Below, in pieces: positions 9,709 through 44,129 of a stretch of 64,000 nucleotides of DNA (within the stretch, counting starts at the first letter, position 1; each line of letters opens with the position of its first letter). Made by a program: the position numbers and the translations under genes. The notes beneath the pieces were generated by a model. The model made no database searches and was not told where the DNA came from. It worked only from the letters and a program-made list of their open reading frames with translations. Source of the stretch: Paenarthrobacter sp. A20 (GTDB lineage Bacteria > Actinomycetota > Actinomycetes > Actinomycetales > Micrococcaceae); the NCBI RefSeq assembly GCF_024168825.1, contig NZ_JALJWH010000001.1:806001-870000 (forward strand). The letters are read 5' to 3'.

Positions 9709-9951
9709 CGTTACCTTTTTCGTAGCCTGTTTCCTGGTGCAGGATATGGGTGTGCTGGCCTGCTGATCCCGGCATGATTGTGACGCTCTGTCAGTCGATG
9801 ATCTTGAGAGTGTTGTCACCGGGGTTGGTAGGTGCCGGGAGACCGCTGATAGGGGCAGGACAGTTCGGGAACGTCGTGCGTAACGTGGGTGCCGGGTCCT
9901 GACACCGATGGTGGGCCAGTGGAGGTAGTTGACTACGACTGGAGGTGCCAG
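9709..9951 (+). ncRNA. Predicted IS110 bridge RNA region with target and donor guides
   Basis: In this non-coding end four short segments occur in the order expected for an IS621-type bridge RNA. GACGCTCT (9782-9789) is identical to the left target. TGAGAG (9805-9810) is complementary to CTCTCA of core plus right target. GGACA (9858-9862) is identical to the element's right end next to the core (11164-11168). GTAACG (9880-9885) is complementary to CGTTAC at the left end (9709-9714). The RNA's true ends and folding were not computed. Confidence 0.65.
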
Positions 9952-11151
9952 ATGATCACGAACCACGACGGTGTCGAGGTGTTTATTGGGCTGGATGTTG
10001 GCAAGGGCGTCCATCATGCCGTTGCCGTGGATCGGGCCGGCAGGAAATTACTGGACCGGGCGCTGCCCAACGATGAAGCCAAAATCCGGGAAATCATCGC
10101 CGAACTTGTGGACGCCGGACGTGTGTTGCTGGTCGTTGACCAGCCAGCGACTATCGGCGCGTTGCCGGTAGCGGTTGCCCAGGCCGCCGGGGTGCTGGTC
10201 GGCTACCTGCCGGGGCTGGCGATGCGCCGGATCGCGGATCTTCACCCCGGAGAGGCGAAGACCGATGCCCGGGACGCGTTCATCATCGCCGAGGCCGCCA
10301 GGACCATGCCGCATGCCCTGCGCTCGGTTCAGTTGGTCGATGAGCAGCTCGCTGAGCTGAGCATGCTTTGCGGGTTCGACGAGGATCTGGCCAAGCAGGC
10401 CACGGCGACTTCGAACCGGATCCGTGGGCTGCTCACCCAGATCCACCCAGCTCTGGAAAGGGTGCTGGGACCCTACATGGACCACCCGGCGGTGCATGAC
10501 CTGCTGCGGACCTGGCCTACCCCTGAAGCGCTCCGTCACGCGGGCCGGCGCCGGATCGGGACCCGGCTGAGCAAACTCGCGCCGCGGATGGGTGAACGTC
10601 TTGCCGATGACATCATCGAGGCCTTGGGCCGGCAAACAGTCACTGTCGTAGGAACGAACGCCGCGACCATCGTGCTGCCCCAGCTCGCGGCCATGCTCGC
10701 CGGGCTCCACGAAAGCCGCGCCACGGTCCTCACCCAGGTCGAAGCTCTCGTGGAGGCCCACCCTCTTCACCCGGTCCTGATGTCTCTGCCGGCCGTGGGC
10801 ATCAGGACCGCCGCACGAATCCTCACCGAAGTCGCCGGGAAAGAGTTCCCCACCGCCGGGCACCTGGCCTCTTACGCCGGGCTGGCCCCCGTCACCTGGC
10901 GATCCGGGTCCTCCATCCGCGGCGACCATTCCTCAAGAAAAGGCAACAAAGTCCTCAAACGAACCCTGTTCCTCTCCGCATTCGCTGCGCTCCACGACCC
11001 ACCGTCCCGGGCATACTACGAACGCAAACGAGCCGAAGGAAAACGCCACAACCAAGCACTCATCGCCCTCGCACGACGACGCTGCGACACCCTCTACGCC
11101 ATGCTCCGCGACGGCACCCTCTACCAACCCCCAACACCCAAAACCGCTTGA
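9952..11151 (+). CDS. IS110 family transposase (DEDD recombinase)
   Basis: A 399-residue transposase. The N-terminal RuvC-like DEDD domain starts FIGLDVGKGVHHAVAVDRAG with the first Asp at residue 15, and includes EAKTDARDAFIIAE. The C-terminal transposase_20 domain has LPAVGIRTAARILTEV (helix-hairpin-helix-like) and the Ser-containing YAGLAPVTWRSGSSIRG motif. Length is normal and the frame intact, so the element may be active. I used the ATG at 9952 preceded by GGAGG; an upstream in-frame ATG at 9889 would fall within the bridge-RNA region. Confidence 0.93.
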   Translation: MITNHDGVEVFIGLDVGKGVHHAVAVDRAGRKLLDRALPNDEAKIREIIAELVDAGRVLLVVDQPATIGALPVAVAQAAGVLVGYLPGLAMRRIADLHPGEAKTDARDAFIIAEAARTMPHALRSVQLVDEQLAELSMLCGFDEDLAKQATATSNRIRGLLTQIHPALERVLGPYMDHPAVHDLLRTWPTPEALRHAGRRRIGTRLSKLAPRMGERLADDIIEALGRQTVTVVGTNAATIVLPQLAAMLAGLHESRATVLTQVEALVEAHPLHPVLMSLPAVGIRTAARILTEVAGKEFPTAGHLASYAGLAPVTWRSGSSIRGDHSSRKGNKVLKRTLFLSAFAALHDPPSRAYYERKRAEGKRHNQALIALARRRCDTLYAMLRDGTLYQPPTPKTA

Positions 11152-11296
11152 CGAAAAACATAGGGACACTCTCACCTAACGGCCCCTAACTGCCGGCGCT
11201 CTCTCACTTCCTTCAGAAGAGTGAGAGAGCGCCGGCGTTTAAATGGCCGGAGGTGAGAGAGCGCCGGTGTTTAAGCGGCGTGTCGTGAGAGAGCGT

Positions 11297-12610
11297 CTAG
11301 CCCGTCACGCCGGTGAGTTCGTTCGGGACGTGCTCAAGCTGCGCCGACTTCGCTACCTTGCCGGTCACCAAGTCCACCGCATGGATGGTGCGCGTCGCAG
11401 GTTCGGTGACGAACGCCGTCGAGCCTTGGACAAAGAGCGTGGGGCGCGGATCCTGCCACGTGGCGGACTCTTCCCACCCAGCAACTACCGGGATCGTGGA
11501 TGTAACAGCGCCGGTGAGTGGGTCGATCACACGCAGGCCCCCGTCAGTCCCAAGCACCAGTGCTTCACCTGCAGGCCCGCGGCCCAATGAACGGAATGAG
11601 TAGCTGGTGCCGATGTCCACGAGTTGCATGGTGGCGGTCTGGGTGTTGACGAGCGAGATCCGCGTGGGTCGCTCCGGCTTGGCCGCTTTGTCCACCTTGT
11701 AGTCGCCGAGGATGACAGGCGATTTTTCCGAACCTGCCTGGTTGCCCAGCCGGCCGTACGCATCGGGGCTGGCCACCTTGGTGATGGCACCGTCCTTGTA
11801 GACCAGCATGCCGTTCTCGCATCCAACCACCACGGCTTCACCTGCGGCAACGGCCTCGCCATGCACCCCTGGGCAGTCCTCATTGCGCAGGATTTCCTTG
11901 CGGTCCTGCCCCTTTCCCGCCGAGAGCACGGCAATTCCGGTTCGGCTTTCCTCGTTGCCGAGGGTCACCAGCAACTTGCCGTCTTCCAGCTCGACGGCCA
12001 CTCCGTGATGGGCTTCAGGCGTCGTATACACGTCAGTGGCGGGCAGCTTTCCATCCTCCACAGCAGCGGCCAGGGCAGACGTTTCGAAGCTCTGCACCTT
12101 GCCCGATCCGTCGTTGAACAGCACCGTCTTGTCCGCGTGAAGCACCACATGGCCAGCCTTGTCTGCCTCAAACGCCAATTCAGTCAGCTTGGGGTCGGCT
12201 ACGTAGTGGTGGCTGTGGTCACCGTGCGGCTCGGTCCAGGCGCCTGCGTCGAACAGGCGGAAGGCATCCCCGGTGGACACGAATACATGCCGCCCGTCGC
12301 CGGCTGGATTCAGGCGGTTGAATCCGGACATTTCCGCAGTTCCCACCTGCTCAAGCGACGCAGCATCCAAAACCGACATGCCGGCGTCGTGAGTGTAGAC
12401 AAGCCGCGGCGTGGCCGCCCCGGCCTCCTTGGCAGTGGGTGCCGATGTAGCCGAAGGTGACGAATCAACTGTGCTTCCCGCGGAACCGCCGGGGTCGGCG
12501 CAAGCGGTCAGCAGCAGGGCAGAGAGCCCGACGGCGGCAATCGGCAGGGCGTGAAGGCGTCGTCTGAGCGTGGTCGGGGCAGGGGTCATGGGGGTGAGGT
12601 GATGAGACAT
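11297..12610 (-). CDS. AztD-like zinc metallochaperone lipoprotein
   Basis: A 437-residue exported beta-propeller-type protein. The N terminus is a lipoprotein signal with lipobox LLTAC. A His-rich loop (EPHGDHSHHYV) and later His residues fit zinc binding, as in AztD, the chaperone that hands zinc to the AztABC importer's binding protein. Repeated blade-like segments (GMLVYKDGAITKV, GGLRVIDPLTGAV) support the propeller. No aztABC genes are adjacent. No Shine-Dalgarno precedes ATG 12610 or the alternative ATG 12589, so the mRNA may be leaderless. A Zur-like box lies 9 bp upstream of ATG 12610. Confidence 0.75.
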   Translation of the reverse strand: MSHHLTPMTPAPTTLRRRLHALPIAAVGLSALLLTACADPGGSAGSTVDSSPSATSAPTAKEAGAATPRLVYTHDAGMSVLDAASLEQVGTAEMSGFNRLNPAGDGRHVFVSTGDAFRLFDAGAWTEPHGDHSHHYVADPKLTELAFEADKAGHVVLHADKTVLFNDGSGKVQSFETSALAAAVEDGKLPATDVYTTPEAHHGVAVELEDGKLLVTLGNEESRTGIAVLSAGKGQDRKEILRNEDCPGVHGEAVAAGEAVVVGCENGMLVYKDGAITKVASPDAYGRLGNQAGSEKSPVILGDYKVDKAAKPERPTRISLVNTQTATMQLVDIGTSYSFRSLGRGPAGEALVLGTDGGLRVIDPLTGAVTSTIPVVAGWEESATWQDPRPTLFVQGSTAFVTEPATRTIHAVDLVTGKVAKSAQLEHVPNELTGVTG

Positions 12611-41917: not shown

Positions 41918-42595
41918 ATGGGGACAGTTCTGGAGGCCGAGGGCCTGCTTGTGGGGTATGCCGGGGCTCCGGTGTGCGGTGAAGTTTCTGCGTCCGTGGA
42001 CGCTGGCGAAGTCTTGGGAGTCGTAGGCGTCAACGGCGCCGGGAAGTCCACGGTAGCCCGGACCATCGCGGGACGGCAGGCTTCCCTGGCGGGGGACGTG
42101 AAAGTCCATGGGCTCCTCATAGATCCCGACGCCATACCCTTCCGCCGGCAGGTATCCGCGGTCTTCGACGACGACCTCTTCTTCCCTTCGCTCACTGTCC
42201 GGGAGCACCTGCTCCTTGTTGCCCGCGGGCATTCCCTCGATGATCCTGAAGCACGGGTGGAGGACGAGCTGGAATTCTTCGGGCTGCTGGGCAGGTCCCA
42301 TGCCATCCCGGATGCTCTCTCTTCCGGTCAACGGCGCAGGCTGTTGCTCGCCGCTGGACTCATCCGCCCGTCGTCGCTCCTGATCCTTGACGAGCCCGAA
42401 CAACGGCTCGATCCCCGGATGCGGGTGGCGCTCGGCGAACGCATAGCGGCGCATGCCAAAGAAGGTGGCGCAGTAGTCCTGGTGACCCACGATCCGCAGT
42501 TGCTGCTCGCCACGGCCTCCACGTGTTTGGTCATTGACGAGGAAGTCCAGGAATTCGATCCTGAGCAGGGGGCCTCGATCATTGCCGGGTCCTGA
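41918..42595 (+). CDS. ABC transporter ATP-binding protein
   Basis: A 225-residue ATPase. Walker A is GVNGAGKST, the signature is LSSGQRRRLLLAAGL, Walker B LLILDEP, and the switch His is in VTHDPQ. Q-loop and D-loop are recognisable. The permease gene starts inside its 3' end. Together they form a simple ABC-2-like exporter or membrane-bound system of unknown substrate. Confidence 0.92.
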   Translation: MGTVLEAEGLLVGYAGAPVCGEVSASVDAGEVLGVVGVNGAGKSTVARTIAGRQASLAGDVKVHGLLIDPDAIPFRRQVSAVFDDDLFFPSLTVREHLLLVARGHSLDDPEARVEDELEFFGLLGRSHAIPDALSSGQRRRLLLAAGLIRPSSLLILDEPEQRLDPRMRVALGERIAAHAKEGGAVVLVTHDPQLLLATASTCLVIDEEVQEFDPEQGASIIAGS

Positions 42596-44129
42596 CACAG
42601 TCACCCTTTCCCCGTCCACGCAGGGCCGGGAACTTGCCGCCGCAATTGTCCGCTTCACCCACCGGTCCTCCCGACGCTACAAGCGCAGCCGGACCTCATG
42701 GGGCGAACGCTTCGTCGATGCCTACAGCTGGGGCCTGGGAATCGGCGTTTCCCTGACCATCGCTGCCTCGTTTGTCCTGGCGTTGCGCAACGAGATTGCT
42801 GACCGGGCTTCCACCGCAAACGGCATCATCCGGACGCAGTGGCTCGTCCTGCCGGAAGAGGTGCTGTGGACGTCCGTGACCTTCGCGGCCCTCCTGGTCA
42901 TCGGCAACCTGGCCCGCAAGCTCGGTCCGATGACCGTGAACGGAGCCGAGGGCAGCTGGTGGCTGACGCTACCGATCGACCGCCGGCCCATGGTCCTGCC
43001 GCCGTTCCTCCGCAAAGTCGTACTCACTGCGGCTGGTTCGGCAATCATCTACTTGCCCTTCAGCATGGTGACCTTCGTTGACCGCGCTCCCAGGGAGCAC
43101 CTGCTCGCTTCGTTGTCTTTCGGCGCTGCCGGGGCCATTGCGCTGGTTCTGGCAGCCCTGCAACAGCTTCGTTTGCTGTCACCGCGGATTGGCAAAGCAA
43201 CGACGGCGGCGGTCCTGCTTGGGTGCTCGATCCTTCCCGCGCTGGCATCGTCCCCGTGGCCAACAGCGTTGGTCGGCGCGGCCGCCGTCGGACTCCTGTC
43301 GCTTGTCGTGCCGCGTGCCGGGCAGGTGCGGGGCGAAGAACTGGTCCGGGGCGGAGCCGTGGCCGGTCACGCCGGAGCGTCCCTGTTCATGATGGACTCC
43401 AACGAGGTGCTGCGCGCATTGAGCGGAGGCCGTCAAAGCGTCGACGGCGGCAGGGCAGCCAGGTTCTACGCCCGGCCCGCCGGCGGACCGCTGAGGGCCC
43501 TGATCCGCGCCGATGTAGTTGCCTTCCTCCGACTCAATCCCCCGCTGATGCCACCAATCCTGTGGCTTGCTGCCTGCATCGCCATGTTGCTCGTGGAAGG
43601 CGGGCTGCCGGAATTCGCCCAATTGGCGGTCATCGTGATCGCAGGGTGTGCCACGGCTTCCGGTATGGGAAGTGTGGCCCGCAAGACTGCCCTGGTTCCG
43701 GAACTCGACGCACTCCTGCCATTGCACCCGGCACTGGTAAGGACCAGCCGGACGCTCATGCCATGCGCTGCGATGGCACTCTGGATGGCGATCCTGAGCG
43801 GGCTGCTGGTTCTGCTCGGTGCTGCGGATCCCTGGCTCATCGGTGTCGGCGCCCTTGCAGGTGTTGGCATGGGCGCAGGCACGCTCCGCGCGGCCACCAG
43901 AACACCGCCGGACTGGACGGCTCCCCCGGTTGAAACTCCGTTCGGCCCCGTTCCCCGTGCTCAACTCGGCTCGTTGATGCGCGGCCTGGACGTGACAGTC
44001 CTGGCGACCATACCGCTGGTGGTGGCGTTGTACCTCGGCTACGTTCCGCTGCTGGTGGTGATGGTGCAGGCCGTTTTCAGTGCCGGGATCTTCCTTGTGG
44101 TGGTGCTGACCCGGGCCAAGAGGTCCTAG
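42534..44129 (+). CDS. DUF6297-like ABC permease
   Basis: A 531-residue membrane protein with about ten hydrophobic helices (for example GIGVSLTIAASFVLALRN, VTFAALLVIGNLARKLG, VVALYLGYVPLLVVMVQAVFSAGIFLVVVL). A conserved basic N-terminal stretch (RSSRRYKRSRTSWGERFVDAYSWG) resembles DUF6297 proteins, which pair with ABC ATPases. The frame's only canonical start is a TTG at 42534, inside the ATPase gene, giving a 62-bp overlap; homologues suggest translation starts near here, but this is uncertain. Confidence 0.72.
   Translation: MTRKSRNSILSRGPRSLPGPDTVTLSPSTQGRELAAAIVRFTHRSSRRYKRSRTSWGERFVDAYSWGLGIGVSLTIAASFVLALRNEIADRASTANGIIRTQWLVLPEEVLWTSVTFAALLVIGNLARKLGPMTVNGAEGSWWLTLPIDRRPMVLPPFLRKVVLTAAGSAIIYLPFSMVTFVDRAPREHLLASLSFGAAGAIALVLAALQQLRLLSPRIGKATTAAVLLGCSILPALASSPWPTALVGAAAVGLLSLVVPRAGQVRGEELVRGGAVAGHAGASLFMMDSNEVLRALSGGRQSVDGGRAARFYARPAGGPLRALIRADVVAFLRLNPPLMPPILWLAACIAMLLVEGGLPEFAQLAVIVIAGCATASGMGSVARKTALVPELDALLPLHPALVRTSRTLMPCAAMALWMAILSGLLVLLGAADPWLIGVGALAGVGMGAGTLRAATRTPPDWTAPPVETPFGPVPRAQLGSLMRGLDVTVLATIPLVVALYLGYVPLLVVMVQAVFSAGIFLVVVLTRAKRS

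Follow-up and report, generated by a model that had tools for sequence, protein, structure and literature searches.

We are highly confident, from sequence comparison, that positions 9710–11168 of the window (the whole 64,000-nucleotide stretch analysed, positions 806001–870000 of a 5.04-Mb contig) hold a recently mobile and autonomous insertion sequence of the IS110 group that carries its own bridge RNA. Its new contribution is a resolved switch of guides among its relatives, together with evidence against a CT core shared by both ends.

Boundaries and copies of the element

9710–11168, + strand: insertion element GTTACC...GGGACA, 1459 bp plus one shared C (9709 or 11169), from the comparison of five copies and the empty sites L057, L222 and L223
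9701–9709, + strand: left target flank CGGACGCTC, from the window sequence and empty sites
11169–11175, + strand: right target flank CTCTCAC, from the window sequence
11160–11168, + strand: right end (left donor) ATAGGGACA, from copy comparison and alignment of relatives
9952–11151, + strand: IS110-group recombinase, 399 aa, PF01548 (E 2e-47) and PF02371 (E 3.3e-19)

A DNA search of the window genome returned five full copies (the window copy L001 and L002–L005) and three partial matches, the latter on another contig. L001–L004 were identical across the 1459 bp, L005 differed by 2 substitutions, and the recombinase protein was 100% identical among the five. The junctions read ...ACGCTC/GTTACC...GGGACA/CTCTCAC... 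in 5/5 copies, and all five insertions were at ACGCTC^TCTCAC within a 32-bp-spaced repeat. The first-pass annotation had described an intact, possibly active IS110 element at 9709–11175 with a deducible target. The family assignment, the deducible target and, from the five copies and the empty sites, recent movement hold; the exact extent is instead 9710–11168 plus one flanking C. No paper on this element was found in the open-licence PubMed Central literature.

Both domains of IS110-group recombinases, DEDD_Tnp_IS110 and Transposase_20, were present, and D15, D105, D108 and S318 were invariant across 8 aligned proteins. PDB matches to the C-terminal part were IS621 (E 1.5e-12) and ISCro4 (E 1.7e-12). 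Residue 63, which may stand in for the E of DEDD, was D in every one of the 8 aligned proteins. There are 242 nt ahead of the start codon and 17 nt from the stop codon to the right end; with so short a gap, the element does not have the IS1111-type RNA position 3' of the gene. At gathering scores, the sole Rfam match in the whole window was a tRNA outside the element.

Other elements of the group were also seen. A second one (L098; 53% protein identity, C-run guides) lies at 42114–43289 of the 150-kb contig C3 of the same genome. In G047 (L033, L092), a 53% relative has a 74% relative inserted precisely into the C-run at its right end, and the right end of L036 was directly abutted by the left end of another element.

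Empty sites

For L005, 101 genus genomes were searched with its left flank, and the loci of 29 relatives were compared with both flanks. At L057 the locus was uninterrupted and read gacgctcTCTCAC, with the right flank immediately after. For the window-copy locus, 198 genomes were searched and the loci of 29 relatives were read; the closest, L222 (94% across the left flank) and L223 (90%), read ggacgctctctcacctaacgg. The sequence ACGCTCTCTCA was present at the window-orthologous place in 13/29 loci, and the left end of the element was seen in 0/29 (110 bases each; L225 stops at the contig end). The empty site, established at two loci, is GACGCTCTCTCAC; set against the uninterrupted relatives, the left junction retains GACGCTC and the right junction CTCTCAC, with one C common to them. 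The genomes of L222 and L223 (G162 and G195, respectively) gave no recombinase protein match at E<=1e-60, so the element arrived after the split from these genomes.

At the L005-orthologous place, L060, L066–L068, L071, L073, L076 and L077 carry long inverted repeats, for example CAACGCGGGGTCACTTACGGCCC and GTTGCGCTATCACTTTTGG, which seem to belong to additional repeat families of the genus.

A passenger or defective element mobilised by another recombinase is an alternative reading. We give this idea hardly any credence: the 399-aa frame is intact, the protein is unchanged in five copies and the DNA in four, and the close relatives G162 and G195 have empty sites and, at the threshold above, no such protein.

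Target repeats

11201–11207, + strand: CTCTCAC repeat unit near the element, 32-bp spacing
11221–11227, 11253–11259 and 11285–11291, − strand: CTCTCAC repeat units near the element, 32-bp spacing

In the window genome, GACGCTCTCTCAC occurred 9 times (backwards control 0) and GCTCTCTCAC 41 times (control 3). CTCTCAC pairs with 12–40 bases between them numbered 61 (control 1), and the spacing was exactly 32 bp in 59 of the 61. Counted genus-wide at the 32-bp spacing alone, CTCNCTCAC pairs were found in 147 of 198 genomes, with 0 or 1 per genome in the controls. The counts of ACGCTCTCTCA were 18, 73, 25, 14, 2 and 2 in the window genome, G021, G060, G185, G079 and G018, respectively, and ACGCTCGCTCA occurred 59 times in G079 versus 11, 5, 3, 10 and 0 times in five other genomes (controls <=4). 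These repeat counts indicate that the target is a repeat family spread across the genus. We found nothing on 32-bp-spaced repeats of Arthrobacter in the open-licence PubMed Central literature.

Within 11169–11297 and genome-wide, CTCTCAC-type units stand at 32 bp spacing with variable filling between them. The array motif has lineage-specific variants (CTCTCTCAC, CTCGCTCAC and CTCCCTCAC), and some units occur in both orientations and would fold as hairpins 3' of genes.

Structure and guides of the bridge RNA

9726–9925, + strand: bridge-RNA region, covariance model R1, 156.8 bits, with the window copy in the training alignment
9764–9827, + strand: predicted target-binding loop, basal stem 9764–9778 with 9815–9827, apical hairpin 9790–9793 with 9799–9802, helices 1–3
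9831–9906, + strand: predicted donor-binding loop, basal stem 9831–9844 with 9895–9906, apical hairpin 9859–9875, helices 4–7
9780–9788, + strand: left target guide (LTG) GTGACGCTC, same letters as the left flank, 7/9 at the window site, from alignment columns
9805–9810, + strand: right target guide (RTG) TGAGAG, complement of CTCTCA, 6/6 match in 11/11 array-guided elements
9811–9813, + strand: TGT after the RTG, complement of donor ACA, handshake-like
9849–9857, + strand: probable left donor guide (LDG) ATAGGGGCA, set against the right end ATAGGGACA with one mismatch rG:dT, covariation in 99 elements
9880–9886, + strand: right donor guide (RDG) GTAACGT, complement of ACGTTAC at the circle junction

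Upstream of the recombinase gene, the left ends predict a two-loop bridge RNA that is backed by covariation in 68 relatives. From the alignment of these 68 left-end sequences, RNAalifold gave two stem-loop domains with two-sided changes in 17 of 36 pairs. In a 33-pair structure, 92.5% of 2243 cells were paired (shuffles 85.0, sd 0.4), the cells with two-sided change were 202 versus 74.2 in shuffles, and the pairs showing such change were 19 versus 15.0, with 4/500 shuffles as high. Slid controls of the structure were 26.0–52.5% paired, a comparison in which the 33-pair structure has the advantage of having been named from the RNAalifold output on the same alignment. R1 found 37/37 nearer relatives, some of them from the training set, 7/9 distant relatives (36–38% protein identity, E 0.0007–0.011) and 0/9 control loci. 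As a single sequence, the region folded with a stability z of −2.07 versus shuffles (4/200 as stable), and the minimum-energy fold had no open loops. In that fold part of the LTG is paired with the RTG side, so it is the comparison of relatives that carries the open loops.

The earlier reading had placed a bridge RNA 5' of the recombinase, expected to expose in two internal loops, in order, GACGCTCT at 9782–9789, TGAGAG at 9805–9810, GGACA at 9858–9862 and GTAACG at 9880–9885, and all four segments were confirmed in place. The R1 match and the comparative structure support the RNA and both loops. With coordinates assigned by alignment columns, the LTG, RTG and RDG placements proved essentially correct (9780–9788, 9805–9810 and 9880–9886, respectively), and the columns of relatives support the order LTG-RTG-LDG-RDG. 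Among 20,000 dinucleotide shuffles of 9711–9951, GACGCTC followed by TGAGAG within 45 nt arose in 4, and with GTAACGT downstream too in 0, for segments that were picked after the flanks were known.

The left donor guide had to be moved. In the window element only, GGACA fits the right end 5/5 and ATAGGGGCA has one mismatch in 9. Among 99 relatives, however, the last five bases of the ATAGGGGCA column matched the right end with a mean of 4.32/5 (38 exact) versus 2.92/5 (8 exact) for the GGACA segment, which also overlaps the donor-loop hairpin 9859–9875. GGACA was overruled despite its better fit here, in favour of ATAGGGGCA as the most likely left donor guide. Between LDG and right end, the first variable inner place agreed in 99/99 elements (G/G 78, A/A 21) and the second in 93/99 (G/G 53, A/A 40, G/A 6), the six G/A elements being the copies of the window genome and L020. 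Disagreement was frequent at position 8 (55/99) and position 2 (21/99), so the predicted pairing is firm only between these two positions.

Guide switch among relatives

Relatives were found in 41 of 198 genus genomes at E<=1e-60 and in 97 of 395 family genomes at E<=1e-100; among the best 80 loci of the named collection were Micrococcaceae, Microbacteriaceae, Brevibacterium and Burkholderiales. The comparison of guides and flanks began with 163 elements above 50% identity. Dropping 16 duplicates, 2 elements at contig edges, 13 whose left end was not recognised and 2 lacking the RDG gave 130. Removal of 2 without LTG left 128, and of 29 without a recognised right end, 99. Because the patterns used to find the ends preset C9, G10 and some of the end bases, constancy at any of these places is no evidence.

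Array guides were carried by 11 elements, namely the five copies of the window genome, L019 (G185), L020 (G021) and four copies in G079. The other 117 of the 128 elements had other guides, with the RTG GGGGGG in 110 and mostly C-rich sites; L028 is counted within the 117 and labelled 'Crun' in the tree. In a tree of 85 proteins with midpoint root, the array-guided elements formed one clade (support 100/80) nested among the others, with one label change. L028, a sister of this clade with guides GCCTCTCTC/ACGGGG, had the look of an intermediate but was set aside: its right end was unfound, and its left flank fits only when shifted by one base.

A second step was seen inside the switched clade. 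In G079, the RTG reads TGAGCG (versus TGAGAG) and the right flank CGCTCA (versus CTCTCA) in 4/4 copies; judging from these sequences, RTG and flank changed together within one sublineage. The G079 copies L025 and L085 were left out of the comparison, as the script found no left end and the RNA is partly N; their ends, read separately, fit the array target. L019 has the LTG TCAACCCTC and the left flank AAACCCTC, and its site ACCCTCTCTCA had 0 other exact occurrences in its genome G185, which is counter-evidence to guides simply following the host.

As the first reading would predict, flanks track guides among the relatives, in counts that treat related copies as independent. The LTG shared 5.59 of 9 positions with the left flank in 128 elements (shuffled flanks 4.90) and the RTG with its flank at 5.67 of 6 in 99 elements (shuffled 5.09), with 0/5000 shuffles as high in each case. 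For the C-run-guided elements, the LTG remained better than shuffled (5.45 versus 5.12, 117 elements, 0/5000) and the RTG was no better (5.62 versus 5.61, 88 elements, 1045/5000). In the 11 array-guided elements, the values were 7.0 versus 6.67 for the LTG, weakly better (390/5000), and 6.0 versus 5.54 for the RTG (18/5000). LTG positions 1 and 2 matched in 18% of the array-guided elements.

The repeats are arrayed and partly palindromic, and they could be a structural hotspot, or be read by the protein, with the guide matches incidental. Reading by the protein is compatible with the sequence alone, because array-guided and C-run-guided proteins differ by approximately 15%. We regard this explanation as very improbable. 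Array pairs are present in genomes of sister elements (89, 58 and 44 in G132, G124 and G040, respectively), yet the sister copies L021, L078, L079, L026 and L024 occupy C-rich sites, as their guides predict. A structural hotspot is disfavoured because these elements sit in C-runs of array-bearing genomes, and the one-base difference shared by right guide and flank in G079 also speaks against incidental matches.

Junctions and core

Compared with the empty site GACGCTCTCTCAC, the left junction GCTC/GTTACC and the right junction GGGACA/CTCTCAC have a single C in common. If this C is numbered 9, position 8 is T in the target (C in C-runs) and A in the donor, and the cores of this element read TC in the target and AC in the donor. 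An IS621-type CT core was not found at both ends; the CT core that had been part of the first-pass annotation's specificity is rejected as a shared core on the evidence of empty sites and junctions alike. IS110-group members outside the kin of IS621 are not known to be bound to a CT core.

In the five copies of the window genome, left junctions bear the G10 of the element and right junctions base 10 of the target. Position 8 of the right junction was A in 94, C in 4 and G in 1 of 99 elements, the lone G being L080, whose right end was probably misread; at the left junction, A was seen in 2/128. Extended by the three bases that follow it, the RTG is exactly complementary to the right product junction ACACTCTCA (11166–11174). 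A cut 3' of C9 would explain both junctions.

We lean, by a modest preference, towards recombination in this clade through non-identical cores, in which C9 alone is common, position 8 is left heteroduplex and repair mostly favours the top strand. The clearest case is L084, with C8 at its right junction like its target and A8 in its sister copies; with L024 and L081, whose left junctions have the A of the donor, it may preserve traces of the other repair outcome. The U 3' of the RTG would find donor A8 as a pairing partner only once the strands have been exchanged.

An ordinary matched CT dinucleotide core, with the bases of the left end or junction mutated later, would agree with the CT cores known in IS621 relatives and with the CT that can also be read within RTG and LTG. 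We consider it unlikely, since all five separate insertions read CG on the left and CT on the right, CT is kept in the empty sites, and the four G079 copies, whose target has CG, show CG on both sides as well. If recombination through non-identical cores is true, natural insertions would read out strand exchange and the demand for matched cores would be relaxed. A single-base core would widen the sequence space for such recombinases and indicate the position of the strand cut.

Proposed mechanism

11148–11153, + strand: TTGACG, putative −35 of a circle-junction promoter, paired with TACCTT at 9712–9717, 18 nt apart in the circle

We propose that excision joins the ends through one C into a circle, whose junction would form a promoter driving the RNA and the recombinase. 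Among 99 relatives, TTGAC stood equally far from the end in 89 and one base closer in 6, and 4 lacked it; TANNNT, of which the TA was preset by the search pattern, was in the left end of 98 of 99. The LDG and RDG of the donor loop would then pair with the circle junction, and the LTG and RTG of the target loop with the host's 32-bp-spaced repeats at GACGC-TC-TCTCA; the top strands would be exchanged after a cut on the 3' side of the invariant C.

Comparison with known systems

Studies have shown that IS621 enters REP elements (PMC11208160) and that a promoter is rebuilt at its circle junction (PMC11208160, PMC11208158). The element in this study resembles IS621 in its left-end bridge RNA, two loops, guide order, insertion into host repeats and recombinase domains (PMC11208160, PMC11208158), with a genus-wide repeat family in the place of the REP elements (PMC11208160). 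Its conserved promoter-like boxes would flank a predicted circle junction, and the RTG with the TGT at 9811–9813 would recall the handshake guides of IS621. The sequence match of the recombinase to IS621 is confined to the C-terminal part. IS621 has its top strands cleaved just 3' of T9 in the CT core; T9 is almost invariant and C8 less so (PMC11208158). Unlike IS621, which has CT at both ends, this element shares a single C, with target T8 and donor A8 (PMC11208158).

The IS110 seekRNA element ISEc21 similarly has its RNA upstream of the gene (PMC11187229). ISArsp5 (L026; Arthrobacter sp. FB24 plasmid NC_008537.1, from whose annotation the name is taken) has 78.0% DNA identity over the whole element and the same RNA scaffold, and differs in its guides, GCCGCCCCC/GGGGGG, and its C-rich site; no paper on it was found in the open-licence PubMed Central literature.

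Bridge and seek RNAs and natural retargeting are already published (PMC11208160, PMC11187229), and natural reprogramming has been described between the related elements ISEc11 and ISXne4, of the IS1111 group (PMC11187229). In contrast to that case, the switch reported here is in the IS110 group, is placed on a tree and is followed, within the clade that switched, by a further step of one base. Sharing a single protein and RNA scaffold, these elements form a natural series from C-run guides to array guides to a one-base guide change with matching flank, and the bridge-recombinase code outside the kin of IS621 therefore becomes readable and testable.
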